A stretch of DNA of 64,000 nt, taken from NCBI RefSeq assembly GCF_900104785.1, contig NZ_LT629733.1, positions 1,644,501 through 1,708,500 of the forward strand, read 5' to 3'. The notes beneath the pieces were generated by a model. It made no database searches and was not told the DNA's origin. It saw only the letters and a program-made list of their open reading frames with translations. Shown piece by piece: positions 43,389 through 61,265 of the stretch. How positions within the stretch are numbered: the first letter of the stretch is position 1; every line of letters starts with the position of its first letter. The position numbers and the translations under genes are program-made. The stretch comes from Formosa sp. Hel1_31_208 (GTDB lineage: Bacteria; Bacteroidota; Bacteroidia; Flavobacteriales; Flavobacteriaceae).

Positions 43389-43431
43389 TAAAGTTATACT
43401 GACAGGTAAGGAATTCATATGACATATATCA
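43389..43431 (-). promoter_or_regulatory. FNR-like promoter of SLC13-pckA
   Basis: Minus strand: TGATATATGTCA (43420-43431, one mismatch to TGATnnnnATCA), centred 33 bp upstream of the centre of the -7 element TAACTTTA (43389-43396). The ATG at 43359 follows after about 24 untranslated bases. The same spacing recurs at six promoters of the right-end stress regulon. Confidence 0.65.
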
Positions 43432-43651
43432 TAGAATGCGGCTTCCTGTTACTTTTGTGATATTACTTATTTTTGACACCTATTATTGCATAAATTATTT
43501 ACGAAAACGAGTGAGTAGTATTGAGTTATAAATGCTAGCTTTGTTTTATGATAAAATTATGGGTCGTCTATAATGCTTTGCGACACATTTTTTAAGATGT
43601 ATTGAATGTAAAACGGCGATTAGAGCTTTAACTCTTAAATATTTTGAACAC

Positions 43652-44368
43652 ATGAAATTAGATATATTAGCTTTTGGAGCGCATCCAGATGATGTAGAAT
43701 TAGGATGTGGAGCAACGATAGCGAAAGAAGTTGCCCGAGGTAAAATGGTCGGAATTATTGATTTGACACGTGGTGAATTAGGCACTCGCGGAACTGCTCA
43801 AACACGAGATGAAGAGGCTAGACAAGCCGCTAATATATTGGGTGTTGACGTTAGGGAGAACCTAGGTTTTGCCGATGGGTTTTTTGTAAATGACCAAGAG
43901 CATCAATTAGAGATTATTAAAATGGTGCGCAAGTATCAACCAGATATGGTATTATGTAATGCCATTGATGATAGGCATATTGATCATGGCAAAGGGAGCA
44001 GGCTAGTGAGTGATGCTTGCTTTTTAAGTGGTTTGTTGAAAATTGAAACCCAACTGGATGGTAAGGTTCAAGACAAATGGCGACCAAAACAGATATATCA
44101 TTATATACAATGGAAAAATATAGAGCCCGATATAGCGGTCGATGTCACAGGATATATAGATACTAAGATGGCTTCAGTTTTGGCTTATAAAACACAGTTT
44201 TATGATCCAGAGAGTAAAGAGCCGCAAACTCCAATATCAAGTAAGAATTTTACAGACAGCATCAAATATAGAGCTAGAGATCTTGGTCGGTTAATTGGCA
44301 CTGAATACGCAGAAGGCTTTAATGTTGAGCGTTATGCAGCTGTAGATAGTTTGTTTGATTTGATCTAA
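43652..44368 (+). CDS. bshB1: Bacillithiol biosynthesis deacetylase BshB1
   Basis: A 238-residue zinc-dependent N-deacetylase of the LmbE/PIG-L family. BshB1 removes the acetyl group from GlcNAc-malate in bacillithiol synthesis. The zinc motif GAHPDDVELGCG (residues 9-20) and the active-site DLTRGELGTRGT, DRHIDHGKG segments match BshB1 closely. It implies the organism uses bacillithiol as a major thiol. It is transcribed divergently from SLC13-pckA. Confidence 0.93.
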   Translation: MKLDILAFGAHPDDVELGCGATIAKEVARGKMVGIIDLTRGELGTRGTAQTRDEEARQAANILGVDVRENLGFADGFFVNDQEHQLEIIKMVRKYQPDMVLCNAIDDRHIDHGKGSRLVSDACFLSGLLKIETQLDGKVQDKWRPKQIYHYIQWKNIEPDIAVDVTGYIDTKMASVLAYKTQFYDPESKEPQTPISSKNFTDSIKYRARDLGRLIGTEYAEGFNVERYAAVDSLFDLI

Positions 44369-44387
44369 TAATTTTAAAAAAAAGTCT

Positions 44388-44417
44388 TTGTAGTAACTTC
44401 GAAATAATTTACATTTG
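44388..44417 (+). promoter_or_regulatory. tRNA-His promoter
   Basis: TTG (44388-44390), 19 bp, TACATTTG (44410-44417): the best -33/-7 match in the window. The predicted transcription start is about 80 bases before the tRNA. Confidence 0.8.
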
Positions 44418-44503
44418 CAGTCCAATTTAAACGGTGGTTCTTTCTTTAGGGTTAGAGCATTCCTTTTATAAGGTTTTTATAACACTTATAATAAATACTA
44501 CAT

Positions 44504-44578
44504 GGTGGTTGTAGCTCAGTTGGTTAGAGCGTCGGTTTGTGGTACCGAAAGTCGCCGGTTCGAGCCCGGTCTTCCACC
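44504..44578 (+). tRNA. tRNA-His (GTG anticodon)
   Basis: A complete cloverleaf. The D arm, the anticodon arm (stem tcggt/accga, anticodon GTG at 44539-44541) and the T arm (gccgg-ttcgagc-ccggt) are all formed. G at 44504 is the extra G-1 that identifies histidine tRNAs, opposite C73. The acceptor stem GTGGTTG/CTTCCAC has two adjacent T-T mismatches at positions 5-68 and 6-67. A full CCA end is not encoded. Confidence 0.95.
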
Positions 44579-44586
44579 CAGATTAC

Positions 44587-44617
44587 AAAGCTTCTCAGAA
44601 ATGAGGAGCTTTTTTTG
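44587..44617 (+). terminator. tRNA-His terminator
   Basis: An 11-bp stem with one G-T pair (aaagcttctca / tgaggagcttt), a gaaa tetraloop and a T-run. It begins nine bases after the tRNA. Confidence 0.85.
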
Positions 44618-44650
44618 TGGTTGTAATTGCAGTTTATGATATAAAGCATA

Positions 44651-44680
44651 AAAGCGTTGCTCAATTAAGAGCAACGCTTT
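44651..44680. terminator. Second hairpin between tRNA-His and the M28 gene
   Basis: A perfect 12-bp stem (aaagcgttgctc / gagcaacgcttt) with an aattaa loop. The position suggests a bidirectional terminator for the tRNA and the convergent M28 peptidase gene. Confidence 0.6.
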
Positions 44681-44802
44681 TGCGTTAGTGATAGTAGCGG
44701 TATCCTTTTTATGTTTTGTAAAAAGATTTAGCGAATAGCACGACCTCAATTTTAAGCAACGTTTTGTTGCGTGAATGAGGTAACGCCCAACTACTTATTA
44801 GA

Positions 44803-46377
44803 TTATTTTGTTTCAGCTTTATCGGCAACGATTTTTCCCTCACGATTAGCTACTTCCCAAGCGGTATAGAACACCAAACGCGTTCTGTTCTCTAATAGGT
44901 CATACTCAATTTTATCTGGTGTGTCACTAGGTTGGTGGTAATCATCATGTGTTCCGTTAAAGTAAAAAATGATAGGAATATTGTTTTTAGCAAAGTTATA
45001 GTGATCACTTCTATAGTAGAAACGATTTGGATCATTCTCATCATTATAGGTATAATCTAAAGTGATGTTCATGTATTTTGCGTTGATTTCTTCAGATAGG
45101 TTATGTAACTCTGTACTGAGTTTATCACTACCAATAAGGTATATATAATTTCTTTCGCCTTCACGTTTTGGATCGGTACGACCAATCATATCAATATTTA
45201 AATTGGCCACTGTATTTGCTAATGGAAATATTGGATCGTTATCAGTATAATGTCTAGATCCTAAAAGGCCTTTTTCCTCTCCTGTAACATGTAAGAATAG
45301 GATAGAACGCTTTGGACCGTAACCTTCATCGGCAGCTTGTTTAAACGCTTCAGCAATTTCAACAAGGGCTACGGTTCCAGAACCGTCATCATCGGCTCCG
45401 TTATAAACTTTACCATCTTTAATTCCTTCATGATCTAAGTGTGCAGAAATGACTAAGATTTCATCTGGTTTTTCTGTCCCTCTAATAAAAGCGACTACGT
45501 TTTCAGAATCTACTTTATCTGACTGGCTAGCGATACTTCCTGTAATTTCTGTGGAAACGGTTTTTGACGCATCTGATGTCATCATCTCTGCATAAATAGC
45601 CTTTCCAATTTTTTCACCTATCATCATAAACAGCATTGGCGATTCGTTACTTTTTAACGAGATACGTCCTGCTCTGCCAGATTCGGCGAGTTGCTTATAG
45701 TAAGCTCCATATTGACCAAGCATAGTTTCATTCATAAACATAATTGCTTTAGCACCATGTTCTTTCGCTGCGTCACGCTTAGATGATATAGACTGTCGTC
45801 CGGCGCTCCATTTGGTATCTTCGGTTGAACCAGAAGTGACATAATTACCGTCAGCATCTTTTGGTTCGCCAGCTTTCACGAGTACGATTTTACCTTTAAC
45901 ATCTAGATTTTTATAATCTGAATAACTGTCTGCATCAATACCATAACCAGCGTAAACCACTTCTTTGATATTAAGTTGTTGTGAATCGGCACTTCCTAAC
46001 ATTAAAAAATCTGAATAATTCTCCATGGCCATTCCATTAACGGAGAGGGCAACGTTTGGAGCTTTTTGGCGTTCTAATGGCACTTCTTGAAAATAGTCAT
46101 CACCATTAAGAGGTGAAGGAATACCCATTGCTACATATTGGTCTTTAAGGTAGTTTACGGCTTTCTTTTGTCCAGGCTCTCCCGTTTCACGACCTTCAAA
46201 CTCATCAGAAGCGTAAGTATACAAAAGTTCTTTAAGTTCATCTGAAGTAATGGTATTACCATATACTGTAGGATCTGCAGGAGGTTTAGGTGCAGTTTGT
46301 TTTGTTGCATTTTGATTGGAGCTACCGCAGCCGACTATAAGTAGAGCAGCGGCGAAAATACGTAAAGAATTTTTCAT
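44803..46377 (-). CDS. M28-family zinc peptidase lipoprotein with PA domain
   Basis: A 524-residue exported lipoprotein (start set at 46377 by its signal peptide; lipobox VGC near residue 17). The M28 aminopeptidase-type zinc ligands are seen in SAHLDHEG, GADDDGSG, TGEEKGLLGS, IDMIGR and YYRSDHYNF. A protease-associated (PA) domain of about 180 residues is inserted before the first zinc ligand (LNIKEVVYAGYGIDADSYSDY and following). It is one of two tandem M28 genes; its neighbour at 46560 lacks the PA insertion. The substrate is likely to be peptides at the cell surface. Confidence 0.92.
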   Translation of the reverse strand: MKNSLRIFAAALLIVGCGSSNQNATKQTAPKPPADPTVYGNTITSDELKELLYTYASDEFEGRETGEPGQKKAVNYLKDQYVAMGIPSPLNGDDYFQEVPLERQKAPNVALSVNGMAMENYSDFLMLGSADSQQLNIKEVVYAGYGIDADSYSDYKNLDVKGKIVLVKAGEPKDADGNYVTSGSTEDTKWSAGRQSISSKRDAAKEHGAKAIMFMNETMLGQYGAYYKQLAESGRAGRISLKSNESPMLFMMIGEKIGKAIYAEMMTSDASKTVSTEITGSIASQSDKVDSENVVAFIRGTEKPDEILVISAHLDHEGIKDGKVYNGADDDGSGTVALVEIAEAFKQAADEGYGPKRSILFLHVTGEEKGLLGSRHYTDNDPIFPLANTVANLNIDMIGRTDPKREGERNYIYLIGSDKLSTELHNLSEEINAKYMNITLDYTYNDENDPNRFYYRSDHYNFAKNNIPIIFYFNGTHDDYHQPSDTPDKIEYDLLENRTRLVFYTAWEVANREGKIVADKAETK

Positions 46378-46559
46378 TTGTTTTGTTTGTTGTTTTTTAG
46401 TGATCTGCTGAAACATCAATACATTAGTTGCACTATGACTGTAGTGCTTAGGCGATTAAAGTTTCAAAATTAAGTGTTACAATTTTTGCAGGCTAATATT
46501 ACGAAAATTCTTGTTCATATTAGTTTTAAGGTATCAGTCTTTAAGCAAAGTTTAACAAC

Positions 46560-47597
46560 TTAAGAAGCGTCTTTATCGACGACAATACGGTTTTTAGAGT
46601 TTGCCAAATACCAAGCAGTTGCAAAAATAAGTCTGGTACGTTTTTCTAATAAAGGGTAGTTGATCTTATCTGGTGTATCTGTAGGCTCGTGATAATCTTC
46701 ATGTTCACCATTAAAATAAAAAATTACTGGAACCCCTTTTTGCGCAAAATTGTAGTGGTCTGATCGGTAGTAATAGCGATTAGGGTCATTGTCTTTATTA
46801 AGCCTATAGTCTAACTCTAAATTGGTAAATTGTTCGTTAGCCTCTTCAGAGATATAATGTAATTGGGTACTCAAACGATCTGCACCAATTACATACACAT
46901 AATCTTCATTATCGCTATGCGCATCGTCTACGCGACCTATCATATCGATATTAAGATTAGCCACTGTGTTTTTCATTGAGAACACAGGATACTGTGCGTA
47001 ATATCGGGAGCCATTAAGTCCAACTTCTTCTCCTGTTAGGTGTAGGAACACGATACTGCGTTTTGGTCGGTAACCCTCTGCGGCTGCTATTTTAAAAGCT
47101 TGAGCCATTTCTAAAACAGCTGCGGTTCCAGAACCATTATCGTCAGCACCATTATATATGTCTGTATCTGTAAAACCCTCATGATCAGAGTGTGCTGAGA
47201 TAATTATGACTTCGTCAGGTTGTTCACTACCTTCAATATAGGCAATGACATTTTGAGAATCTTTAATCCCTTCCGAAAAGTAAGCTTCGGGGATGTATTG
47301 ATAGTATTTAGAGCCCAGAGGTGATTTTATACCTTCCTGAATGTAAAAATCTTTTATAAATTTTGTCGCTTTATGATGCCCAATTTCACCAGCTCGTCTT
47401 CCTTGGAAATCATCAGATGAAAAGGTATAGACGTGAGATTTTAAATCGTCTTCGGTGATGGTGTTTAAATAGGTCTTTACGGTTTGAGAATCTTCAAATA
47501 CGATACTTGCTTTGAGGTTTTCTATTTTTTTTGTGTGCCTCAGTGTGGCACAAGAACCTACTAAGGTTAGAGATAAAGCAACAAGTTGAACTTTCAT
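46560..47597 (-). CDS. M28-family zinc peptidase lipoprotein, short paralog
   Basis: A 345-residue exported lipoprotein (N-terminus MKVQLVALSLTLVGSC, with a lipobox). The zinc-ligand motifs SAHSDHEG, GADDNGSG, TGEEVGLNGS, IDMIGR and YYRSDHYNF are present, so it should be active. It aligns along its length with the neighbouring 524-residue peptidase apart from the absent PA domain; the C-terminal 100 residues are especially similar. This looks like a tandem duplication followed by loss (or gain) of the PA domain. Confidence 0.92.
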   Translation of the reverse strand: MKVQLVALSLTLVGSCATLRHTKKIENLKASIVFEDSQTVKTYLNTITEDDLKSHVYTFSSDDFQGRRAGEIGHHKATKFIKDFYIQEGIKSPLGSKYYQYIPEAYFSEGIKDSQNVIAYIEGSEQPDEVIIISAHSDHEGFTDTDIYNGADDNGSGTAAVLEMAQAFKIAAAEGYRPKRSIVFLHLTGEEVGLNGSRYYAQYPVFSMKNTVANLNIDMIGRVDDAHSDNEDYVYVIGADRLSTQLHYISEEANEQFTNLELDYRLNKDNDPNRYYYRSDHYNFAQKGVPVIFYFNGEHEDYHEPTDTPDKINYPLLEKRTRLIFATAWYLANSKNRIVVDKDAS

Positions 47598-47688
47598 TCT
47601 GAGATGTAATAGGTATCTGATTTGGATTCAAATAAAATAAAAAAAAAGATAATACCGAAGCATTACCTGATTTAATTTGTGGACTGAG

Positions 47689-48018
47689 TTACTCGTCGAT
47701 TTCTAATCCTTCAAGCTCTTGAATGGTTTCTTCCTCAAGCTGCTCTCCAGTTTGTTCTAATTGTTCTGTATCACCTACTTCAACAGTATTGAATATGGCT
47801 TTGTATGTAGTCAATACTAATGCAATAATAGTCATTAAAAAAACCAGTTGGATAGATTTCTTTAATTGCGGATGATTTTTTGAGGTCAATAATGCAATAA
47901 CACCAGAAATTAATGCTAAAACAGCAGGAATATAGGCTATTTTAGATAAGGGTGTTACTGCTAATATTAAAGCGAATATAGAGGTGATAAAACCTAAAAT
48001 TACAAAAAGTTTTTTCAT
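47689..48018 (-). CDS. Small membrane protein with acidic tail
   Basis: A 109-residue protein with three hydrophobic helices (FVILGFITSIFALILAVTPL, IAYIPAVLALISGVIALL, LVFLMTIIALVLTTYKAI) and a Glu/Asp-rich C-terminal tail. I do not recognise a family. It lies six bases downstream of the broken DUF3108 gene in the same direction. Confidence 0.7.
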   Translation of the reverse strand: MKKLFVILGFITSIFALILAVTPLSKIAYIPAVLALISGVIALLTSKNHPQLKKSIQLVFLMTIIALVLTTYKAIFNTVEVGDTEQLEQTGEQLEEETIQELEGLEIDE

Positions 48019-48024
48019 GATGAT

Positions 48025-48808
48025 CTAGTATTTAAGTCCGCTTGCAGATTTGATTTTCAACTCACCGTTTCCGACAGGTATTTTGAATTTTGCATAGACA
48101 GGCACTTTGTTTTGATCGGCAGTTAACCATATCAGATTGTCGTTATTTCCTTTGAGCACGTTACTGTTATTTAAAGTAATAGCGAGTTTATAGCATTCTT
48201 TTCTTCCTAGAGCTGTATTGATGGTTTCTTTGCTTAAATAGGTGATTTTCACAACGGTTTCTTCATTGTCGAAAAGGACTGTAAAGTTTTGGCTCTCGCC
48301 AATAGCGGCTTTATGGATATCTAAATTTCTGATATGATATAAAGTTGTTACTAAGTCACGAGTGGAATTTCCAATTTTAACTGATTTCTTTTCTTCCCAA
48401 TATTTACCAGCTCTGTTTTTTTTTACGCTTGAGGCTTGCGACAGTGTTCGTTTTATGGTTGAATTTATATTTCATGAACTTCTCGTAGCCACCTTCATTT
48501 ATGTCGCGATTGTATAGGTATGGGGTTAAATTACTCGGACTTACATAGCTTTCATAGAGATCTCTTATTTTAAAGAAACTATCCCATTTACTGTAGGTTG
48601 CTGCAGTGCATTTTAATTTTAATAAGGTCGTTTTAGAGGTTTTTACCTCGCTCGTTTCCATTGTGACTTGAGCTAGTTCAGTTAATAAACCAGACATATT
48701 ATAGGAGGCACTAAAGGTTAATTTTTCTCCAGCAGCAATCGTTTTGTTTTGAGCGTTTATCGCCAATGTGAATAATAATAGTAAGGTTGATACTAGTAAT
48801 TTCATCAT
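48025..48808 (-). pseudogene. DUF3108 protein gene with a frameshift at an A9 run
   Basis: Two reading frames together make a single DUF3108 protein of about 260 residues with a signal peptide (MMKLLVSTLLLLFTLAINAQ). The N-terminal frame (48808 down to 48404) ends shortly after KRKKKQSW. The C-terminal frame continues as NRAGKYWEEKKSVKIGNSTRDLV and ends KSASGLKY at 48025. The break lies at a run of nine A in the mRNA sense (plus-strand T at 48416-48424); eight A would restore a single open frame. This could be a true inactivation, a sequencing error at a homopolymer, or a slippage site that yields the full-length protein some of the time. Confidence 0.8.
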
Positions 48809-48922
48809 GATTCGTTTAGTTTAATAACGATTTAATAAGCATTTATTGTGCCGAAAATACAATGCCAAAGTCTTTCAAACTAATTTTTTTATTGTTTTAA
48901 TACCTATCAAGTTTGGTAGACC

Positions 48923-48965
48923 TGACTTTTATCATTATTTTTTTCTTAAGTTGTAAGTACCTTAG
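48923..48965 (+). promoter_or_regulatory. FNR-like promoter of the USP gene at 48990
   Basis: TGACTTTTATCA (48923-48934), one mismatch to TGATnnnnATCA, centred 33 bp upstream of the centre of TACCTTAG (48958-48965, 7 of 8 to TAnnTTTG). The ATG at 48990 follows after about 20 bases. It is the only plus-strand member of the set. Confidence 0.65.
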
Positions 48966-48989
48966 AGTATCATCAAAGTTGTATGCATT

Positions 48990-49847
48990 ATGAAAAAGAT
49001 ATTACTACCCACAGATTTTTCTGAAAACTCCATGAATGCTATTCATTACGCTATGGCCTATTTTGAGTCTGAAGCCTGTACGTTTTATATTCTTAATGTA
49101 CAGAAAGTATCAGCCTTTGTAACTGATGATTTGATGGCGATGCAGCCTTCAGAAACCATTTTTAATTCATTAGTAGATGCAGCTAAACAAAAAGTAGGGC
49201 GTTTAATTCGTGAAATACAAGATCAATATCATAATGAGTTACATCAGTTTGAGTCTAAGGTAGATTATGATAATTTTATTGATGCTATCAACCAACTCAT
49301 CGCATTGGAGGAGATTGATTTGATTGTTATGGGAACTAAAGGTGCATCAAATATTGCTATGACTTTTTTAGGGTCTAATGCGGCAAGAGTCATACAGCGC
49401 GCCAATTGTCCAGTTTTGGCAATACCTAACGACTATCAGTTTAAAAGTATAGAACGTATAGCATTTCCGTCTAATTACTTTACCGATTATAATCCTGAAA
49501 ATTTAAAACCTTTACTTTCTATGGCAGAGCGAGATGCATGCACTATAGACGTTCTGCATGTTAAAGATGGTGAGCACTTGACTCAATTTCAGGAAAATAA
49601 TAGAGCATTTTTAGACGCGTCATTCTCTAAATTAAATCATTCATTTATTGAATTGGAACAAGGTAATTTGTTCAAGAAGATTACGAATTATATTCTAGAG
49701 CATGATATCGATTTGCTTGCCATGATGAGTAGAAAACACTCGTTTTTAGAACGCCTGTTCGTTAGACATCCCGCAGAGAGTTTTGCGTTTGATTTGAAAG
49801 TACCGCTTCTTGTTATGGAAAATACTGGAAATTTTTATATTAAATAA
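48990..49847 (+). CDS. Tandem-domain universal stress protein (1)
   Basis: A 285-residue protein of two UspA domains. The N-terminal domain (residues ~1-145) starts KKILLPTDFSENS and contains the ATP-binding loop GTKGAS...GSNAARVI...CPVLAIP (GxxG-x9-GS type). The C-terminal domain lacks the ATP motif and has MMSRKHSFLERLF instead. Universal stress proteins bind ATP or sense energy/redox state and aid survival in anaerobiosis or starvation. It is convergent with the lipoprotein gene at 49855 and has its own FNR-like promoter. Confidence 0.92.
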   Translation: MKKILLPTDFSENSMNAIHYAMAYFESEACTFYILNVQKVSAFVTDDLMAMQPSETIFNSLVDAAKQKVGRLIREIQDQYHNELHQFESKVDYDNFIDAINQLIALEEIDLIVMGTKGASNIAMTFLGSNAARVIQRANCPVLAIPNDYQFKSIERIAFPSNYFTDYNPENLKPLLSMAERDACTIDVLHVKDGEHLTQFQENNRAFLDASFSKLNHSFIELEQGNLFKKITNYILEHDIDLLAMMSRKHSFLERLFVRHPAESFAFDLKVPLLVMENTGNFYIK

Positions 49848-49854
49848 TTGGTCA

Positions 49855-50529: not shown

Positions 50530-50544
50530 TATGTTGGGTATTCG

Positions 50545-50994: not shown

Positions 50995-51016
50995 AGTATT
51001 ATATTTAACGAAAGAA

Positions 51017-51049: not shown

Positions 51050-51059
51050 CTCTCAATTA

Positions 51060-51512
51060 TTACAGAATTTCAATCACCCTCTTCGATTGATCTTTTGTCT
51101 CTTCTTTCTTCTTAAGATTTAGTTTTAAAATACCATCACGATATTTTGCTTTCACATCCTGATCCATATTGATAGATTTTGGAAGTGTTAATGATCGTTT
51201 AAAGGAACTATAACTAAATTCACGTCGTTTATAGTCTTCGTCTTTTTCTTCATGTTCTTTTTTCTTTTCACCACGAACATTAAGGACATTGTCATCAATT
51301 GTAACTTCAAAATCTTTTTTTGTAAAGCCAGGTGCTGCAAATTCAATTTCAAAATCTTTGTCATGTTCTATGACATTCATTGCTGGCATCATACTATCTT
51401 CTTCAAGAAAGAAGTCATTTTTAAAGAAATCATCGTCGCTTAAAAAGCTTTTTAGACCTTCATTAGTCCAAGGGTGAAGTCTGTTACGTTTGTTAAATTT
51501 GATAAGTGACAT
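51060..51512 (-). CDS. Small heat-shock protein, Hsp20/alpha-crystallin
   Basis: A 150-residue ATP-independent holdase. The alpha-crystallin domain (residues ~45-140) has DFEIEFAAPGFTKKDFEVTIDDNVLNVRGEKK and RSLTLPKSINMDQDVKAKYRDGILKLNLKKKE. The C-terminal VIEIL provides the IxI motif for oligomer assembly. It is led by an FNR-like box at 51578-51589, so it belongs to the USP regulon. Additionally, TTTGATATCAAA lies just upstream of the box. Confidence 0.95.
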   Translation of the reverse strand: MSLIKFNKRNRLHPWTNEGLKSFLSDDDFFKNDFFLEEDSMMPAMNVIEHDKDFEIEFAAPGFTKKDFEVTIDDNVLNVRGEKKKEHEEKDEDYKRREFSYSSFKRSLTLPKSINMDQDVKAKYRDGILKLNLKKKEETKDQSKRVIEIL

Positions 51513-51546: not shown

Positions 51547-51589
51547 TCAATTTACAATACAAACGGTATTTCTAAAATGATATATATCA
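51547..51589 (-). promoter_or_regulatory. FNR-like promoter of hsp20
   Basis: A perfect 12-bp palindrome TGATATATATCA (51578-51589) centred 33 bp upstream of the centre of the -7 element TAAATTGA (51547-51554), about 29 bases before the ATG. A second palindrome, TTTGATATCAAA (51591-51602), abuts it upstream. Confidence 0.75.
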
Positions 51590-51673: not shown

Positions 51674-53047
51674 TTAGAGTATAATTTTATCAACATCTGT
51701 GAGTTTTGGAATGGTTGCATTCCAATTAAACGTATCTTTTAGTTTCACTCTAAAGGCATCTAATGCCGTTGCTTCCCCGTGAACCAGATAGACTTTTTCC
51801 GGATAGTTTTTAATACGACTTAACCATTTTATTAAATCGTTTTGATCAGCATGAGCTGATAAACTTTCGATATTTTGTATGCTGGCTTTTACGGGATAGT
51901 ATTTACCGAAAAAGCGAATTTCATGCGCACCATCTTGTAGTTGCCTTCCTCGCGTTCCTTCAGCTTGATAACCTACCAATAATACAGTTGTTGAAGGTTC
52001 ATCAATAAGCTGCTGTAAGTAGGTGAGTACACGACCGCCAGTCACCATTCCACTTCCAGCGATTACAATTTTGGAGCGCTTGTCATCTATGGTTTCCCAA
52101 GTTTCTTTGTATGACTGTATAATGTTTATGTGATTGCACATGGCGTTGTAATCTTGCATTGATAATTTATGCCACTCTGGGAAATTTCTAAAAACGTCGA
52201 GCACGTTATTACCCATCGGACTGTCAATAAAAATCGGAATATTAGGAATTCGGTGTTGTTTGTATAGTTTCCATAAAATATACATGAGTGTTTGAAGGCG
52301 TTCTACTGCAAAACTTGGAATGATGAGGTTCCCTTTTTTATGAATGGTATCTTTAATAAGAGTAGCTAAGCGCTCTTCTACATCTTCAATTGGGTGCAGC
52401 TTGTTACCGTAAGTCCCTTCAATAAATAAGAAATCTGCCCATTCAGGGGTTTTAGGATCATTTAACAAATAGTCATTACATCGCCCCACATCTCCAGAAA
52501 AAACAAAACGTTTTCCGTTGATATTTATGTCGATAAACGTGGCTCCAATAATATGGCCATTGTATTGAAATCGGTATTTAATATGCTTAGATAAATGAAT
52601 CCATTTGCCTTCAGTTTCTCCTTTGAATTGTCTTATTGTATGCTCGGCATCCTTAACAGTATAAAACGGTAAAGCAGGCTGATGACTGCTATATTTTTCT
52701 TTATTGGCTTTTTCAGCGTCTTCTTCATGAATTTTCGCACTATCCATAAGAATAATTTCAGCGATGGCTAAAGTAGGAGGTGTCCCAATGATTTTACCAG
52801 TAAACCCTTGTTGTATTAATCGTGGTAAGTAACCTACGTGATCCAAATGACCATGAGTAAGGAGTACCACATCAATATCGCCCACCTTAATTGGGAGATC
52901 GTTCCAATTGAGTTCGCGAAGTTCTTTAAGACCTTGAAACATGCCGCAATCAATCATGATGTTCTGTTCAGAGGTTTCAATCAGAAATTTGGAGCCAGTA
53001 ACGACTCCGGCTGCTCCTAAAAAGTTGATTTTTGCAAAACTGTCCAT
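51674..53047 (-). CDS. Metallo-beta-lactamase/beta-CASP ribonuclease-like protein
   Basis: A 457-residue MBL-fold enzyme of the beta-CASP group, related to CPSF-73-type and archaeal/bacterial RNases. The MBL zinc motif is LTHGHLDHVG (residues ~62-71). The beta-CASP motifs follow: the acidic FIEGTYGNK, IPIFIDSPMG, AGSGMVTGGR, SLSAHADQ and VHGE. It is expected to cut RNA endo- or exonucleolytically in the cytoplasm. It lies 12 bases downstream of the ATP-cone/endonuclease gene, and the gene pair lies in the stress regulon, suggesting RNA turnover or stress remodelling. Confidence 0.9.
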   Translation of the reverse strand: MDSFAKINFLGAAGVVTGSKFLIETSEQNIMIDCGMFQGLKELRELNWNDLPIKVGDIDVVLLTHGHLDHVGYLPRLIQQGFTGKIIGTPPTLAIAEIILMDSAKIHEEDAEKANKEKYSSHQPALPFYTVKDAEHTIRQFKGETEGKWIHLSKHIKYRFQYNGHIIGATFIDININGKRFVFSGDVGRCNDYLLNDPKTPEWADFLFIEGTYGNKLHPIEDVEERLATLIKDTIHKKGNLIIPSFAVERLQTLMYILWKLYKQHRIPNIPIFIDSPMGNNVLDVFRNFPEWHKLSMQDYNAMCNHINIIQSYKETWETIDDKRSKIVIAGSGMVTGGRVLTYLQQLIDEPSTTVLLVGYQAEGTRGRQLQDGAHEIRFFGKYYPVKASIQNIESLSAHADQNDLIKWLSRIKNYPEKVYLVHGEATALDAFRVKLKDTFNWNATIPKLTDVDKIIL

Positions 53048-53899: not shown

Positions 53900-53911
53900 G
53901 TGTTCTATTTA

Positions 53912-53947: not shown

Positions 53948-53975
53948 GATCACCAACTACTTCGAATTCCGAAAT

Positions 53976-54383: not shown

Positions 54384-54395
54384 GATTTTTTTGTT

Positions 54396-55250
54396 TTAAT
54401 TTCTTAAATCGTGCATTACTAAAATGGGTACTTTAGAGTGAAATGTAATTCCTTTAACTAGAGGTTTTGTAAAAACACTTCCAAAAAACAAATGCTTCTT
54501 ATTAATGAAAGCTACCATATCACTATCACGACTTTCCACAAAAATGTTGATAGCAGTCTCTACAGAATTTACCGATAAGAAGTGGTAGTTATAATTCACA
54601 TCTTCAAAAATTTCTTCTAACAATGTTTTATTTGCTTCTTGTTCACCATCTAAGGTCTTATCCTCGGAAATGTGAAGGATTGCAATGGTTGAATTACATG
54701 TTTTCGCAATGTCTGTAAGATATTTTAATTCACGTCTTTTATAATGTGTTTTGAAACTCGTTGGAAAAACGATTTCCTTAGGGAGTGCTGTTTTTGCTTT
54801 TGAAGGGACGACAATCACAGGACAATTTCTTACTTTCTCCATGACATATACAGCAGTACTTCCGAAGAAAGAATCATCGGCATCCGTCTCACCTTTGGTG
54901 CCCATTACGATCATCTCTATGTCTTTCTTTTCTACAATATTTTTAATGGCTTCAATAGGATTGTTAAATACGGAAATCGTCTCAAAATGATGTTTCGGAT
55001 TGTCATAATCACTCATTGCTATCATGTCATATACCTTAGCGAGACCATTTTCCGAATGCAACTTAGCCGATTCATATAATTCACTACCTGGTTCAATATT
55101 CAATAAACTGTCAAAAATATTACTTGTAGCGGAAAAGACATTTAAAATAAAAAAGTCACATGCATCTTGTTTATAAAGTTCCTGCGCATAGCGAATGGCA
55201 TGATGTGCATGTTTTGAAAAGTCTGTAGGTAGTAAAATCTTGCGTCGCAT
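54396..55250 (-). CDS. Tandem-domain universal stress protein (2)
   Basis: A 284-residue protein with two UspA domains; the first starts RKILLPTDFSKHAHHA and has the ATP loop GTKGETDADDSFFGSTAVYVM. The second domain ends with FINKKHLFFGSVFTKPLVKGITF and lacks the ATP motif. It is the promoter-proximal gene of an operon continuing to the baeRF-like gene, driven by the FNR-like promoter at 55276-55318. Confidence 0.92.
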   Translation of the reverse strand: MRRKILLPTDFSKHAHHAIRYAQELYKQDACDFFILNVFSATSNIFDSLLNIEPGSELYESAKLHSENGLAKVYDMIAMSDYDNPKHHFETISVFNNPIEAIKNIVEKKDIEMIVMGTKGETDADDSFFGSTAVYVMEKVRNCPVIVVPSKAKTALPKEIVFPTSFKTHYKRRELKYLTDIAKTCNSTIAILHISEDKTLDGEQEANKTLLEEIFEDVNYNYHFLSVNSVETAINIFVESRDSDMVAFINKKHLFFGSVFTKPLVKGITFHSKVPILVMHDLRN

Positions 55251-55275
55251 TGTACTTACTATTAATTAATTGAAC

Positions 55276-55318
55276 TAAAGTTACATCCTTGACCAGAGGA
55301 TTAAAATGATATATATCA
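55276..55318 (-). promoter_or_regulatory. FNR-like promoter of the USP gene at 54396
   Basis: TGATATATATCA (55307-55318), a perfect palindrome, centred 33 bp upstream of the centre of TAACTTTA (55276-55283). The ATG at 55250 lies 20-25 bases beyond the predicted start of transcription. Confidence 0.8.
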
Positions 55319-55323
55319 ACTTG

Positions 55324-56154
55324 TTAATCAGGAATGACATAAAATGGAACTATTGGATGAAATCCTATTTTGTTAATCACAGGTTCTTTGATAATGCCTT
55401 CAATAAAACTGTGCTTATAATTCACCATTACTAACATATTAATCTCTAAGAGTTCAATAAAATCATTAATTTCTTCAGTCTTTTTCGCATAATTTGGCAT
55501 GAAATGAAAACTGTAATCATAATTTTCAATATAGCTTTCGAGCATGGTCATATTATATTCTTGGACACCAGTTAGTTTATCTTTAGACAGGATACAAACC
55601 ACTCTAAGTTTTGAGTCATAGAGTTCAATAAGCTCTCTTAAATATTTTAATTCTCTATCGGAATAATGCCGAGTAAAGTCTGTTGGAAATGCGATTTGAC
55701 TTGGTATTTCAAAATTGAAATTATCAGGAACGATTAACAGTGGGCATTGTTTTGTTTTTTTAATAACACGAACGGTATTGCTTCCAAAAAAAATCTCCTT
55801 GGCGCCTGTAGCACCTTTAGTTCCCATAACCACCAAATTAATATGATGTTTTGCAATCGCAAGGTCAATAGCAACTTGTATATCTGCGGCACTTAGAATA
55901 ATTTCAAAAGTATGATTAGCATTTGCATTTGTAGTTTCTGCCATCTCCTTTAATTCGGTCAGGTTATCTAATGCAGTTCTAGACATCGCCTCTAATAATC
56001 TATTAGATATATTAGACATAGATGACGCTTTCATTTTAGTAGAATTTAAAAAGTAAAATGTACACTCTTCATCATTAAAAAGTTTTAAAGCATAAACCGT
56101 AGCGCTCCAGGCATTATCTGAAAAATCTGTGGGTAAAAGAATATGTTTTTTCAT
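55324..56154 (-). CDS. Tandem-domain universal stress protein (3)
   Basis: A 276-residue protein with two UspA domains. The first domain carries KKHILLPTDFSDNAW and the ATP loop GTKGATGAKEIFFGSNTVRVIKK...CPLLIVP. The second ends MLVMVNYKHSFIEGIIKEPVINKIGFH, without an ATP motif. It lies 32 bases downstream of the USP gene at 56187 and is probably the last gene of a three-USP operon starting at 57933. Confidence 0.92.
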   Translation of the reverse strand: MKKHILLPTDFSDNAWSATVYALKLFNDEECTFYFLNSTKMKASSMSNISNRLLEAMSRTALDNLTELKEMAETTNANANHTFEIILSAADIQVAIDLAIAKHHINLVVMGTKGATGAKEIFFGSNTVRVIKKTKQCPLLIVPDNFNFEIPSQIAFPTDFTRHYSDRELKYLRELIELYDSKLRVVCILSKDKLTGVQEYNMTMLESYIENYDYSFHFMPNYAKKTEEINDFIELLEINMLVMVNYKHSFIEGIIKEPVINKIGFHPIVPFYVIPD

Positions 56155-56186
56155 GACTTTAATTATTTTAATTTCTCATTCGATGT

Positions 56187-57029
56187 CTATAGATTTGATG
56201 GGATCACTAAAAAAGGTACATTTAAATGAAAACCAATGTGCTTGATGTTAGATTTGAAAAATAGATTTTCAAAAAATGAATGTTTATTATTGATCATTAC
56301 AAGCAAATTGATGCGTGATTTTTGTTGAAATTCTGCAATAGCTTCAGGAATATAATTATTTCTGACATTATGAAATAAATGAGTCGTCTCCTTGAAGTGT
56401 GTTTTCAGTTGTTCTTGATTGTATTTTTGAATTGATGTTAATTCAGGTCGAGTTGAAATATGTAAGACATTAACACGCGCTTGAAATTGTTTGGCAATAC
56501 TTATAATAGATCCTAATTGTTTCTTATTAAAACTGATCAAATAATCTGAAGGAAACAGTATTTCATGTGGCGGTTCAAATTCATAATCATTCGGCACTGC
56601 CAATACAGGACATTTCGCTTTGTTAATGACATGAATAGTATTAGAACCAAATAGGATTTCTTTAACTCCGGAAGCACCTTGGGTGCCCATGATAATCATA
56701 TCCATCACATTACCATCATTTAAGGCATTAATCTCTTCGGTTAATGTATTGAATGCTGAACTGTACGCGATGATATGTTTTGGGTTATTAAATTCTTTTT
56801 CGATACGATTTTTGAGTTGTTCTAAGCCGTTTTCAGAGACTTCTTTCATGGCATCTTGTAGTCCGAATTGAGCGGCACTCAATTGAGCCGATTCCAGCTG
56901 ATAGATAATAGGTGTATAGGTGTTTAAAAGGGTAAATGTACAGGTTTGGTCTTTAAATAACTGAAGCGCATAACTAATAGCATTCCAAGAATTTTGCGAG
57001 AAATCGGTGGGTAATAGAATTCGTTTCAT
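56187..57029 (-). CDS. Tandem-domain universal stress protein (4)
   Basis: A 280-residue two-domain USP. Motifs: KRILLPTDFSQNSW, ATP loop GTQGASGVKEILFGSNTIHVINK...CPVLAVP, and the degenerate second domain LLVMINNKHSFFENLFFKSNIKHIGFH. It is the middle gene of the three-USP run 57933-55324. It has no FNR-like box of its own. Confidence 0.92.
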   Translation of the reverse strand: MKRILLPTDFSQNSWNAISYALQLFKDQTCTFTLLNTYTPIIYQLESAQLSAAQFGLQDAMKEVSENGLEQLKNRIEKEFNNPKHIIAYSSAFNTLTEEINALNDGNVMDMIIMGTQGASGVKEILFGSNTIHVINKAKCPVLAVPNDYEFEPPHEILFPSDYLISFNKKQLGSIISIAKQFQARVNVLHISTRPELTSIQKYNQEQLKTHFKETTHLFHNVRNNYIPEAIAEFQQKSRINLLVMINNKHSFFENLFFKSNIKHIGFHLNVPFLVIPSNL

Positions 57030-57084
57030 GGTACTAGAGATTTAATTTGAGTTTTATAATGCGGTCATCGTATTCTTAAATGTC

Positions 57085-57933
57085 TTAACGTTTAATGTTT
57101 TGCAATGCTAAAAATGGGATATCGAGATGAAGCGACATTTCATCAATAGTAGAATGAAACAGCATCTGCTCTAAAAAGGAATGTCGGGAATTGACCATGA
57201 CTAACATGTCGATATTATTTTCTTTGATATAGGTGAATATTGCATTCACAATACTTTTGCTTTCAATGGTTTTATAGTTGAGACTGTTTTTACAAAGTTC
57301 ATGAGATAGAAAGTCTTTGTTATCTTCTTGTCGTCTCGATAGTTTTTCGCTTTTAGAAATATAAACCATGTCTATAACAGCTCTGTAAGGGGATGCCATT
57401 TCACACAGTAAATTGAGTTCTCTTCGTTTATAAGGAATCATATAATTAGTAGGAAATAGGATATGCTTTGGTTGGGTGTAATCATAATTCGCGGGAATTG
57501 ATAAAACCGGACAACTTACATATTTAAGTACTTGAAGTGTGTTACTTCCAAAAGTAAGGGACCTGTCATTGGTTTTACCTTTTGTTCCCATCACAATGAT
57601 ATCTATGTTTTTTCCTTCTGAAAGGAGATCAATTTCATCAACTAGCGCATTATAGGCTGAAATCTTGTGATATCGATGCCTTGGGTTTGGCCAAATACCG
57701 CTAACGGTCGCTAAAAGTGATTTAAGTTGTTCCTCTGAACGACTGCGACATGATTCAATCAACGGTTCAATAGCATCATTATTTAGCAATTCAATCTCTT
57801 TGTATACCTCATCTTGATATGTATGTAGAAAATAGATTTCGGCTTTTTCATATTTAAAAAGCTCTAATGCATATTTTACGGCATTCATAGCATTATCTGA
57901 AAAGTCTGTTGGAATTAATATTTGTCGCATCAC
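57085..57933 (-). CDS. Tandem-domain universal stress protein (5)
   Basis: A 282-residue two-domain USP. The N-terminal domain carries RQILIPTDFSDNAM and the ATP loop GTKGKTNDRSLTFGSNTLQVLKY...CPVLSIP. The second domain has the replacement motif NSRHSFLEQMLFHSTIDEM. The gene heads the three-USP run; an FNR-like box (57979-57990) and the -7 element TAAATTGA lie directly upstream. The start could be the first or second Met, one codon apart. Confidence 0.92.
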   Translation of the reverse strand: MMRQILIPTDFSDNAMNAVKYALELFKYEKAEIYFLHTYQDEVYKEIELLNNDAIEPLIESCRSRSEEQLKSLLATVSGIWPNPRHRYHKISAYNALVDEIDLLSEGKNIDIIVMGTKGKTNDRSLTFGSNTLQVLKYVSCPVLSIPANYDYTQPKHILFPTNYMIPYKRRELNLLCEMASPYRAVIDMVYISKSEKLSRRQEDNKDFLSHELCKNSLNYKTIESKSIVNAIFTYIKENNIDMLVMVNSRHSFLEQMLFHSTIDEMSLHLDIPFLALQNIKR

Positions 57934-57947
57934 ATTTTATTTTGATA

Positions 57948-57990
57948 TCAATTTACTATCTAATTGGCTTGAAAACAATGACAAATATCA
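57948..57990 (-). promoter_or_regulatory. FNR-like promoter of the three-USP operon
   Basis: Minus strand TGATATTTGTCA (57979-57990), one mismatch to TGATnnnnATCA, centred 33 bp from the centre of TAAATTGA (57948-57955). The palindrome TTTGATATCAA overlaps the -7 region. Confidence 0.6.
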
Positions 57991-58003
57991 GGCAATACTT
58001 TTG

Positions 58004-59722
58004 TTAACAACCCTTATCATTATTAAGACTACATGTTTGCAGTACTTGATGGTCTCTACTACCGTATCTATATACCGTAATTCCCTTTAAATTATATGTC
58101 CAAGCCTGATAAAAAATGTTTGAGACATCTTCTTTAGTCGCAGCTTCAGGAAGGTTTATAGTCTTTGAAACGGCATTGTCTGTGTATTTTTGAAATGCCT
58201 CTTGATGACGTAAGTGATATGACCAGTGGATATCTAAACTTGTTTGAAAGATAGCTTTTACCGAATCAGGAATAGTATCACAATTTTGGATACTTCCAGT
58301 TGTTAAGACTTCATGTTCGACAGTAGATGACCATAAGTCTAACATTTTCATTTTTTTCAGAAACACACTATTGATTTCTGTTTGAGTTTGATTACCGAGA
58401 ATTCCTGTTCTGTTATAAGCTAGTGCAAACAAAGGCTCTATAGAGTAGGAGGTGTTAGCGATTACCGAAATTGTTCCTGTTGGCGCAATACTATTACATG
58501 TTGCATTTCGCAGTTTTGTTTTTGGATAGTAGACGCTGTTTTTCCATAGGGGAAAACAATCGCGTTCTTGAGCTAATTCATTAGAAGCTTTATAGCTTTC
58601 GGTTTTAATAAATTTCATAAGCTGATCTCCTAGTTGAATCGCTTTTTCAGAAGTATAAGGTAGTTCGAGTAGCATTAATAGCTCTGCCCAGCCCATGACA
58701 CCTAATCCTATTTTACGATGAGCCATAGTTATGCGTTTAATTTCGGGTAGTACATAATGATTCACTGTTATAATATTATCTAAAAACCGAATTGCAAGTT
58801 TTACGGATTGCGCAAGTCCCTCCCAATCAATGTCGTAAATATTGTTGTTTAGTATTACCATTTTTGAAACATTAATAGAACCTAAGTTGCAGCTCTCATA
58901 ATCTAAAAGCGGTACTTCACCACAAGGATTAGTACTTTGAATCTTACCTTGTTGCGGTGTTGGATTGAATGCATTTATCGTATCAAAAAATATTAAACCA
59001 GGGTCACCAGTTGACCAGGCCTCATGTACGATAAGATTCCATAATGATTTTGCTGAAACCGTTTTAGAAATTTTTCGCGTTCTAGGATTGATTAAATGCC
59101 AATGGTCATCTTGAGAAACGGCTTGCATAAATGTATTCGAGATGCCTACAGAAATATTAAAATTCTGGATGGCATTTTTAGACGATTTTGATGTGATGAA
59201 TGCTTCAATATCAGGATGGTCAACATTAAGAATGCCCATATTAGCACCTCTGCGTTTTCCGCCTTGTTTGATGTATTCTGTGGCTGCATTATAAACTTTC
59301 ATAAAGGCTACAGGTCCCGAGGTTGTCCCTTTTGTTGAACTCAACATATCATCTTTGGGGCGTAATTTGGAAAAATTAAAACCAGTACCACCTCCACTTT
59401 GATGAATTAGTGCGGCATTTTTTAAGGTGGTAAAGATGCTATCTAAACTGTCTTCAATAGGCAATACAAAACAAGCACTCAGTTGTCCGTTTTTGCATCC
59501 TGCATTCATAAGAGTTGGTGAGTTCGGAAGAAATTTTAATGCGCTTAGTAAGCTGTAAAAAGCAGATTCGTAAAACGTGGTTTTATCATTTTCACAGCTC
59601 GCTACAAATGCTGCAACGCGCCTTAAAAGCTCATCTGGTGTTTCAATAATCACACCGTATTTGTTTTTTAGGAGATAGCGATCTTCTAAAATTTGAATGG
59701 CGTTATCTGAAAAAATGGTCAT
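58004..59722 (-). CDS. nrdJ: Adenosylcobalamin-dependent (class II) ribonucleotide reductase
   Basis: A 572-residue class II (NrdJ) reductase that makes deoxynucleotides with or without oxygen using coenzyme B12. Active-site features: the conserved loop LPNSPTLMNAGC, NPCGEVPLLDYESCNLGSIN with the thiyl-radical cysteine, and a C-terminal Cys pair (QTCSLNNDKGC). There is no ATP-cone at the N-terminus, unlike many reductases; a separate ATP-cone protein is encoded at 53060. An FNR-like box and a ~160-base leader with a 16-bp hairpin lie upstream. A class II enzyme fits low-oxygen growth. Confidence 0.94.
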   Translation of the reverse strand: MTIFSDNAIQILEDRYLLKNKYGVIIETPDELLRRVAAFVASCENDKTTFYESAFYSLLSALKFLPNSPTLMNAGCKNGQLSACFVLPIEDSLDSIFTTLKNAALIHQSGGGTGFNFSKLRPKDDMLSSTKGTTSGPVAFMKVYNAATEYIKQGGKRRGANMGILNVDHPDIEAFITSKSSKNAIQNFNISVGISNTFMQAVSQDDHWHLINPRTRKISKTVSAKSLWNLIVHEAWSTGDPGLIFFDTINAFNPTPQQGKIQSTNPCGEVPLLDYESCNLGSINVSKMVILNNNIYDIDWEGLAQSVKLAIRFLDNIITVNHYVLPEIKRITMAHRKIGLGVMGWAELLMLLELPYTSEKAIQLGDQLMKFIKTESYKASNELAQERDCFPLWKNSVYYPKTKLRNATCNSIAPTGTISVIANTSYSIEPLFALAYNRTGILGNQTQTEINSVFLKKMKMLDLWSSTVEHEVLTTGSIQNCDTIPDSVKAIFQTSLDIHWSYHLRHQEAFQKYTDNAVSKTINLPEAATKEDVSNIFYQAWTYNLKGITVYRYGSRDHQVLQTCSLNNDKGC

Positions 59723-59801
59723 AGCATTCAGTTTAAAAATGATGTCTATAAGTTTGTTATGAAAAGTAATTTTATTTCAAACGGAGTAAATCCCATGAAC
59801 C

Positions 59802-59837
59802 AAGAAAGCCAAACTTAAAACTAAGTTTGGCTTTCTT
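59802..59837 (-). terminator. 16-bp perfect hairpin in the nrdJ leader
   Basis: A perfect 16-bp inverted repeat (stem from aagaaagcc to ggctttctt, loop aaac) between the FNR-like promoter and nrdJ. There is no clean T-run on the minus side, so it may be an RNA stability or attenuation element rather than a full terminator. An 11-codon ORF (59836-59871, MSIESGDSLLF) ends at its left edge. Confidence 0.55.
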
Positions 59838-59887
59838 AAAATAATAGAGAATCCCCACTCTCAATAGACATATTTAAATGACATTTT

Positions 59888-59930
59888 CAAATGTAGCTAA
59901 TGGTGATTTATTTAGAAATGATATATATCA
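59888..59930 (-). promoter_or_regulatory. FNR-like promoter upstream of nrdJ
   Basis: TGATATATATCA (59919-59930) centred 33 bp upstream of the centre of TACATTTG (59888-59895), which matches TAnnTTTG at 8 of 8. The predicted transcript starts near 59882, about 160 bases before the nrdJ ATG. Confidence 0.85.
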
Positions 59931-59947
59931 GTTTTTGAGTAATTTCA

Positions 59948-60334
59948 TTAAATAATCACGATGCCATAGGCTGTATTAAGCAGAAACAAACCTATAAAAA
60001 AGAGAAGCATATAAATAACTTGTACGAGTTTGATGTTTATATATTCTAGCCAATTCACCGTGGGTTTTGGAAAGATAAATAAGGCCAAGCCTATAAATAA
60101 AGCCAACCACCCAATAAGTGTAATGATAAGTTTATAGCTCAATTCCCAAAAGTTATGAAATTGGATATTGATTAACCCAATAATAATAGAAATAAAAGCA
60201 GCAATGAGCAGAAACTTTTCGTCATTAAGGTCTTTGAATATCTGTTTAATTCGTTTCGGATTAAGACTTAGAATTAAAAAGAATATTAAGAGGTACCAAC
60301 CCCAGAACTTTGCTAAAAATAATGAAACATCCAT
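59948..60334 (-). CDS. Hypothetical four-helix membrane protein of the stress regulon
   Basis: A 128-residue inner-membrane protein with four predicted helices (ILSLNPKRIKQIFKDL is the main charged loop). No family is recognised. It starts 12 bases after the stop of the USP gene at 60347, so it is transcribed from the same FNR-like promoter. Confidence 0.7.
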   Translation of the reverse strand: MDVSLFLAKFWGWYLLIFFLILSLNPKRIKQIFKDLNDEKFLLIAAFISIIIGLINIQFHNFWELSYKLIITLIGWLALFIGLALFIFPKPTVNWLEYINIKLVQVIYMLLFFIGLFLLNTAYGIVII

Positions 60335-60346
60335 AATATTTGATTT

Positions 60347-61189
60347 CTATTCGTGTAATACTAAAAATGGAATAAGCGTATGATAGCTTATTTTTTCTAC
60401 TCTTGAGTGAAATAGGATATGCTGAAAATAATTGAGGTTCTTTGCCACCATTACTATGATATCAATATCTCGACTTTCTACAAAACATTGGATGGCATCT
60501 TCTACCTTATTATTGGTTAAGTAATGAAAACTAAGATCAATGCCATCAAAAAAGTCTTCTAATATTTCTTTATTGCTTTCTTGTTCCATATTCAATATTG
60601 CATTTTTTTTTGTGATATGGAGAACTCGTAAATAAGCATGTTTACTCTGTACTAATTCTGAAATGGGTTGTAAGGTTTGTATATCATAAGACATTGAAAA
60701 ATCAGTAGGGAAAGCCAACTCTTTTAATTGCTTATATTTTGCGTTTTCAGGAACAATCAAGGTGGTGCATTTGACTTTTGTAATGACATCACCAGCATTG
60801 CTTCCAATAATATATTCCTTTAAACCAGAAGCACCTTTAGTACCCATGACGATTATATCTATTCTTTTCTCATCAACATGTTTTCTAATAGATTCTATTA
60901 TAAAACTATAGTCTGTAAGCGTATAGAATTTATGATTTTTGTTCGTCTTAAACGTATCACTAATACGTTTAAGTATCTTTCTGAGTTTAAGTTTAGAAGG
61001 GTTGATATATATATTTTCAATCTCTTGTTGTGTAGGGATATAAGCGGTGTCACCAACAATTAAATTATCAAGTGTATTTACATGTAGTACATAGAAATTG
61101 CACGTTTTGTTTTCAAAAAATTTAATAGCGTACTCTATGGCATTCCATGAGTTTTCTGAAAAATCTGTGGGTAGTAAAACATTCTTCAT
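60347..61189 (-). CDS. Tandem-domain universal stress protein (6)
   Basis: A 280-residue two-domain USP. The first domain carries KNVLLPTDFSENSW and the ATP loop GTKGASGLKEYIIGSNAGDVITK...CTTLIVP. The second is the most divergent of the six (VAKNLNYFQHILFHSRVEKISYH). The start is set at 61189: the longer reading frame from 61225 would begin upstream of the predicted transcription start (~61217) of the FNR-like promoter. It lies between that promoter and the four-helix membrane protein gene. Confidence 0.92.
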   Translation of the reverse strand: MKNVLLPTDFSENSWNAIEYAIKFFENKTCNFYVLHVNTLDNLIVGDTAYIPTQQEIENIYINPSKLKLRKILKRISDTFKTNKNHKFYTLTDYSFIIESIRKHVDEKRIDIIVMGTKGASGLKEYIIGSNAGDVITKVKCTTLIVPENAKYKQLKELAFPTDFSMSYDIQTLQPISELVQSKHAYLRVLHITKKNAILNMEQESNKEILEDFFDGIDLSFHYLTNNKVEDAIQCFVESRDIDIIVMVAKNLNYFQHILFHSRVEKISYHTLIPFLVLHE

Positions 61190-61222
61190 CTTCAATCTAT
61201 TTTCATCTTGTCTCTCATGCAA

Positions 61223-61265
61223 CAAAACTAAGTAGTAGATTAATTTTATAAAATGATATCTATCA
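61223..61265 (-). promoter_or_regulatory. FNR-like promoter of the USP gene at 60347
   Basis: Minus strand TGATAGATATCA (61254-61265), a match to TGATnnnnATCA, centred 33 bp upstream of the centre of TAGTTTTG (61223-61230), an exact TAnnTTTG match. Confidence 0.85.

Follow-up and report, generated by a model that had tools for sequence, protein, structure and literature searches.

We analysed a window of 64,000 nt from Formosa sp. Hel1_31_208 (contig NZ_LT629733.1, positions 1644501-1708500; the genome comprised 3,098,671 bases in one contig). At one end of the window a histidine kinase gene stood next to the gene of a regulator in which a receiver, a cNMP-binding domain and a Crp-type helix-turn-helix were joined (receiver-CRP). 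Genes for universal stress proteins (usp), hsp20, a class II ribonucleotide reductase (RNR; NCBIfam NrdJ_Z, 687 bits at a cut-off of 400) and an SLC13-type transporter with pckA lay in the same region, and seven promoters carried an FNR-like box (Table 1). A sequence-only reading of this DNA had treated all seven as one regulon under the receiver-CRP. Our comparisons suggested that this set divides, such that usp and hsp20 would go with the receiver-CRP and SLC13-pckA with the network of an FNR-like protein.

The seven boxes were borne out at the coordinates first proposed for them, and so was their fixed distance to the -7 element: TANNTT began exactly 23 bp past the box TGAYNNNNRTCA at all seven promoters. 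This combination (TGAYNNNNRTCA, 23 bp, TANNTT) was used as the full pattern. The window held 24 oriented TGAYNNNNRTCA sites; TANNTT stood at offset 23 in eight of them and at any other offset from 0 to 43 in one at most. The eighth correctly spaced box (5388-5399) was inside an open reading frame (ORF) and probably arose by chance. The boxes at 48923 and 57979 had been described as one-mismatch forms, a label that we dropped because they differed from TGATATATATCA at three and two positions, respectively; both matched TGAYNNNNRTCA. Mapped starts in Flavobacterium psychrophilum put the -7 box of sigma-A promoters, TAnnTTTG, at -12 to -5 (PMC9723704). With the -7 element placed likewise, the box would occupy -47 to -36. 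The predicted centre at -41.5 corresponded to the geometry of class II CRP/FNR-type promoters and agreed with the position near -41 that had been suggested before. A sigma-70 promoter scan was uninformative since its model was made for another promoter type.

The spacing test rested on the window and on two sets of receiver-CRP loci (30 including our own, and 80) that shared some genomes; according to their titles, nearly all of the 80 were from Flavobacteriaceae. Since the relatives' loci were fetched by the receiver-CRP protein alone, they were free of selection for the box. Offset 23 was found in 61 of 148 oriented boxes of the smaller set (0-8 for every other offset) and in 377 of 932 boxes of the larger one (4-30). 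The base at -35 was T in 96% of the relatives' promoters (n=376) although the search pattern left it free. Thus, the T's after the downstream half, noticed earlier as TTT at four of the boxes, were a general feature of the site; they presumably fall about where a -33 element would be. The base at -5, which was not demanded either, was A or G in 95% of the same 376 promoters.

A scan of the whole genome, put forward by the sequence-only reading as a check, returned 42 full-pattern matches as compared to 5 for a reversed-pattern control, with stress and low-oxygen genes among the predicted targets. The control predicted about 0.1 match per 64 kb; the window had eight. Nineteen of the 42 sites were located between 1687891 and 1743559 (56 kb; binomial P of 2e-22, computed on an interval picked after the sites were seen), so that the island extended about 35 kb past the window. 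By our reading, 36 sites were upstream of an ORF or a small RNA, and the remaining six were about as many as the reversed control predicted. Where a site preceded an ORF, the start codon was usually 57-90 bp from the box start. Outside the window the predicted targets included hemN, two CBS-domain proteins, PPK2, formate-tetrahydrofolate ligase and some proteins that matched no Pfam family. Boxes also lay upstream of ccoNO (cbb3 oxidase, with a 62-codon ORF in between), of an ArsC/Spx-like gene with a heavy-metal P-type ATPase behind it, and of a WG-repeat/HlyD/FtsX exporter cluster. Some box-controlled first genes were very small ORFs (48-62 codons) missed by ORF cut-offs, such as those near 1823 (+) in locus L046 and near 1049 (+) in L050. 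Three island palindromes had a matching -7 element on either side. Separately, locus L036 (7518-7904) had two boxes about 375 bp apart with their -7 elements face to face, one before a 51-codon ORF and the other before nothing evident. By the bases after the box, 15 of the 19 island sites were of the TT type (TCATT) and two of the TA/TG type (TCAT-A/G); among the remaining 23 sites these numbers were 7 and 11.

The receiver-CRP, one of the proteins behind four Crp-type HTH matches (PF13545) in the genome, had an intact receiver by our reading. The four cysteines that hold the oxygen-labile 4Fe-4S cluster of FNR were looked for in it and not found, as it had two cysteines in all, one of them beside the likely phosphorylation site. 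The full protein was present in 66 of 149 family genomes (best E at most 7.1e-76) and absent from the other 83 (next best 1.4e-35); across the phylum, matches at E of 1e-60 or better occurred in 17 of 118 genomes, our own included, all of the same class. Its presence coincided with the TT sites: their density was 3.33 per Mb with and 0.47 per Mb without the receiver-CRP, about sevenfold (63 vs 63 genomes at least 90% complete; Mann-Whitney P of 3.5e-20), as compared to 0.14 and 0.13 for the reversed control in these genomes. A genome of the same genus without the regulator had one TT site vs 22 in our own. Moreover, a promoter of this kind lay within 200 bp past the regulator stop in 72 of 79 loci, and within 60 bp in 66; one of the 80 loci was left out since its regulator was too near the contig end. 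In the set of 30, 28 loci had such a promoter (L078 and L079 had none). The gene behind it was usp in 18 of 20 annotated loci; in L109 it was a 158-aa ORF with no assigned family, and L105 lacked the site.

The second line of evidence came from hsp20. From the 83 genomes without and the 66 with the regulator we took 43 each, selecting for completeness; hsp20 matches were found in 30 of the regulator-negative and 41 of the regulator-positive ones, and 30 loci per group were used, one copy per genome. The box preceded hsp20 in 23 of 30 regulator-positive genomes and in none of 30 regulator-negative ones. Since the latter carried only distant hsp20 types, the zero means that the hsp20 gene type and the box travel together with the regulator; it does not indicate loss of the box from one and the same gene. 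Taken together, these comparisons linked the promoters of usp and hsp20 to the receiver-CRP next to them, and this part of the proposed regulon was supported on comparative grounds.

Several observations weighed against such an assignment. Seven of the 30 regulator-positive hsp20 loci had no box, and in our genome no full-pattern match faced the kinase gene. The receiver-CRP went with TCAT-A/G sites as well, whose density was 2.4 times higher where it was present (3.86 vs 1.58 per Mb; Mann-Whitney P of 1.9e-12; reversed control 0.12 vs 0.21), and 24 of the 72 promoters directly after the regulator gene were of the A type. Six complete regulator-positive genomes (G071, G094, G134, G121, G096 and G130) had only 2-4 TCATT sites, three less complete regulator-negative ones (G062, G147 and G048) had 11-23, and the related genomes compared here were not independent samples. 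The split into TT and A/G sites had been proposed from our genome and part of the relatives' sites, before the groups were counted. Because TCAT-A/G sites were denser in regulator-positive genomes as well, the two classes represented a bias and no clean code, and we rejected the split as an exclusive code.

The box at 59919 had been taken to control the RNR gene. The box itself was confirmed; however, a predicted RNA of about 85 nt with a terminator lay between, which spoke against the RNR as the sole direct target. Near-identical RNA occurred at the same place in L110, a Psychroserpens metagenome-assembled genome, with no RNR behind it, and a similar one in L154, where RNR did not follow either; RNR stood behind the RNA in our genome and in L111. 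In other loci, RNAs with other terminators occupied the same place. Altogether, 22 of the 377 promoters (in 19 of the 80 loci) were followed by a terminator-like hairpin without an ORF of 40 codons before it, and 20 of these candidates began 1.5-2.7 kb after the regulator start, behind the first usp or a small membrane-protein gene. The recurring terminators were of two kinds, AAGCCA.. and AACAGGAAG.., and an alignment of nine RNAs, picked by us from our own and the 22 candidates, had 12 terminator pairs, four of them with two-sided changes. No Rfam family matched the small RNA at the gathering score. Tandem pairs of box-driven RNA candidates were also seen in L105 (genome G143; near 8107 and 8436, minus strand, AACAGG-terminator type) and in L111 (near 10390 and 10545, plus strand, AAGCCA type).

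Thus, the 59919 box apparently drives a conserved predicted RNA and not simply the RNR. Since the terminated RNA was near-identical where no RNR follows, the RNR is perhaps reached only by read-through, and may be transcribed in this way from the 59919 promoter. The RNR as the sole direct target was rejected for the same reason. A milder version, in which RNR is transcribed from this box and the hairpin serves as an attenuator in its leader and does not end a small RNA, we considered rather unlikely, yet it was the strongest of the alternatives: RNR does follow in our genome and in L111, and the window had no second full-pattern match between the box and the RNR. The RNAs of L110 and L154 and those with other terminators argued against it.

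The SLC13-pckA box behaved differently from those of usp and hsp20. In a search of 60 family genomes it was present in 8 of 11 loci (at least 61% identity, counting our own; no locus was obtained for a twelfth copy) and was always of the TCAT-A/G type. Five of the eight genomes with the box had no receiver-CRP, and for this reason the idea of one regulon covering all seven was rejected. Conservation without the receiver-CRP led us to assign the SLC13-pckA box to a second regulator, a 226-aa protein encoded near ccoNO (C1:2910660), to which it probably belongs. This protein had N-terminal cysteines, its nearest NCBIfam family was Fnr (below cut-off), and it was a better FNR candidate than the receiver-CRP. 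The recognition helices of the two proteins had a Glu and an Arg in common, at what we take to be the positions that read TGA in FNR.

It could be argued from these similarities, and from the boxes of the same spacing in genomes without the receiver-CRP, that the cbb3-linked protein serves all boxes and the receiver-CRP binds something else. This was unlikely in view of the hsp20 comparison and of the TT sites: even when the comparison was confined to genomes of at least 2.6 Mb that were 90% or more complete and had four or more TCAT-A/G sites, the TCATT density was 0.62 per Mb in 32 regulator-negative vs 3.37 in 60 regulator-positive genomes.

Table 1. Boxes, promoter elements and genes of the usp, hsp20, RNR and SLC13-pckA region (window coordinates)
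Feature	Position	Strand	Remark
Box TGATATATGTCA, TCAT-A type, upstream of SLC13-pckA	43420..43431	-	predicted +1 43384
-7 element TAACTTTA	43389..43396	-	SLC13-pckA promoter
SLC13-type transporter (41521-43359) and pckA (39861-41492)	39861..43359	-	
Box TGACTTTTATCA upstream of usp	48923..48934	+	predicted +1 48970
-7 element TACCTTAG	48958..48965	+	usp promoter
Universal stress protein	48990..49847	+	
Box TGATATATATCA upstream of hsp20	51578..51589	-	predicted +1 51542
-7 element TAAATTGA	51547..51554	-	hsp20 promoter
hsp20	51060..51512	-	
Box TGATATATATCA upstream of usp	55307..55318	-	predicted +1 55271
-7 element TAACTTTA	55276..55283	-	usp promoter
Universal stress protein	54396..55250	-	
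Box TGATATTTGTCA upstream of usp	57979..57990	-	predicted +1 57943
-7 element TAAATTGA	57948..57955	-	usp promoter
Universal stress protein	57085..57933	-	
Box TGATATATATCA, predicted small-RNA promoter	59919..59930	-	predicted +1 59883
-7 element TACATTTG	59888..59895	-	small-RNA promoter
Predicted small RNA, about 85 nt, 18-pair terminal hairpin	59799..59883	-	fold z -5.48
Class II ribonucleotide reductase (NrdJ/Z)	58004..59722	-	downstream of small RNA
Box TGATAGATATCA between receiver-CRP stop and usp	61254..61265	-	predicted +1 61218
-7 element TAGTTTTG	61223..61230	-	usp promoter
Universal stress protein	60347..61189	-	start ATG 61189
Receiver - cNMP-binding - Crp-type HTH regulator	61289..62341	-	350 aa
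Histidine kinase: haem-type PAS, LOV, PAS, HisKA, HATPase	62341..64000	-	about 625 aa, 5' end past window

For the usp gene next to the regulator, the listed ATG was preferred over a TTG at 61225 because the TTG was upstream of the predicted +1. Elsewhere in the window, a Flavo-1 RNA (Rfam RF01705, 54.8 bits; 44677-44749, plus strand) directly followed a tRNA (44505-44578). A beta-CASP nuclease was encoded at 51674-53047 (minus strand); its best NCBIfam matches, Cas14 of type VII CRISPR and archaeal aCPSF1, were both below cut-off. Such a nuclease was found near usp genes in 8 of 20 annotated loci.

The kinase pointed to a possible signal. The best solved-structure matches of its first PAS domain were DosP (E of 3.9e-15) and FixL (5.2e-12), and a His and an Arg were both aligned to DosP residues that we take to be the proximal haem His and the distal, oxygen-contacting Arg. 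An adjacent ORF was obtained from 77 of the 80 loci (two of them short, L169 and L182); 76 of these 77 had a haem-type PAS, and 76 were aligned for the two residues. The His was kept in 73 of 76 domains and the Arg in 51; its absence from the other 25, with predicted haem binding resting on two residues, told against an oxygen signal. A LOV-type domain followed the haem-type PAS in our kinase (in the PDB it matched a 'sensory box protein' best, at E of 4.8e-37; phototropin and 'LOV domain' entries ranked lower), and its NCRFLQ motif, with the photo-reactive Cys of LOV domains, made it a predicted photoreceptor domain.

This domain might suggest that blue light is the main input and oxygen secondary. 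We considered this improbable, since the LOV motif was present in only 15 of the 77 kinase ORFs as compared to the nearly universal PAS His, and low-oxygen genes were among those co-regulated. Oxygen was therefore likelier as the common signal, and light is probably an optional input. Finally, the notion that the box is a mere composition-driven palindrome beside promoters, suggested by a GC of 35% and the AT-richness of the box, is very unlikely given the excess over the reversed control and a spacing peak one base wide.

From the geometry, enrichment, conservation and co-occurrence seen in the sequences we infer binding, activation, phosphorylation, haem and an oxygen signal as follows. In what we regard as the probable explanation, CRP/FNR-type regulators would bind these boxes as class II sites and activate otherwise ordinary Bacteroidota sigma-A promoters, within an oxygen pathway of the FixL-FixJ-FixK type. 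The haem-PAS would probably release the kinase activity at low oxygen, possibly modulated by the LOV flavin domain, and the kinase would phosphorylate the receiver-CRP, which combines the receiver (the role of FixJ) and the DNA-binding part (the role of FixK) in one protein. The most likely activator of the usp, hsp20 and small-RNA promoters would be the receiver-CRP. The FNR-like protein would share the box and probably own much of the TCAT-A/G subset, including SLC13-pckA. More tentatively, such a compressed pathway could be general in Flavobacteriaceae, leading from a kinase sensing oxygen through haem (and, in some lineages, blue light through LOV) to a fused FixJ-FixK protein, and from there to usp, hsp20 and a small RNA of its own, with the box shared with a separate FNR and the two regulators told apart by the bases after it.

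Among the matches listed in the open-licence PubMed Central literature, such a system was not described. It would be an example from nature of a cascade shortened from two steps to a single protein, of two regulators using the same box and of a small RNA linked to such a promoter. For a large family of bacteria, it offers a low-oxygen regulon that can be tested, together with its promoter code and candidates for the regulators.

The FixK box is TTGAT-N4-ATCAA. The system resembled FixL-FixJ-FixK in its haem-PAS kinase (both His and Arg were present in ours, with haem predicted), its receiver and a CRP/FNR-type protein without Fe-S cysteines. It differed in that receiver and CRP part formed one protein, which leaves out both the DNA-binding domain of FixJ and the extra step through fixK, in its Bacteroidota sigma-A promoters and in the LOV domain of some kinases. 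A separate FixJ that switches on fixK was not found, and because of the fusion we did not file the system as a FixLJ-FixK member, though it may work alike. The box, its class II position and the cbb3 oxidase, hemN and usp targets were shared with FNR/FnrL regulons; the receiver-CRP, unlike FNR/FnrL, had just two cysteines. In mycobacteria, the DosR dormancy regulon, under a haem-sensing two-component system, is likewise rich in usp genes and includes a class II RNR as well as a small heat-shock protein. The likeness was in gene content only; DosR belongs to the NarL/FixJ type and its box is a different one. FnrS of enterobacteria is a small RNA under an FNR-type box, a likeness of arrangement for which we claim no relation in sequence.

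NmpRSTU of Myxococcus xanthus was similar in that a haem-requiring kinase exerts two-component control over low-oxygen genes (cbb3 oxidase, HemN); it differs by its protoglobin sensor, hybrid-kinase relay and NtrC-like regulator, as described in PMC11841059. Among the MalR-like CRP/FNR proteins of Bacteroidota, PMC8510549 includes a homologue from a Flavobacteriales genome, for which carbon sensing is predicted, unlike the oxygen reading here; since the word receiver does not occur in that paper, this homologue is not known to be a receiver-CRP. FixK itself receives its input from FixLJ and has no Fe-S cluster (PMC4999443). A common box serves FNR, FixK and DNR in alphaproteobacteria, and the predicted FixK core regulon comprises FixL, FixJ, Hsp20, an HlyD protein, ABC permeases and a CBS protein (PMC2908626, Table 1); Hsp20, HlyD, ABC permease and CBS protein were also among our predicted targets. 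In the same source, cbb3, hemN, a P-type ATPase and a UspA are on the FNR list and one UspA is on the DNR list. UspA and the P-type ATPase were absent from its FixK list, another point against our explanation, since the usp genes and the P-type ATPase here were located in the receiver-CRP island. Thus, except for the placement of these two, the division between the receiver-CRP and the FNR-like protein would partly resemble that between FixK and FNR in alphaproteobacteria.

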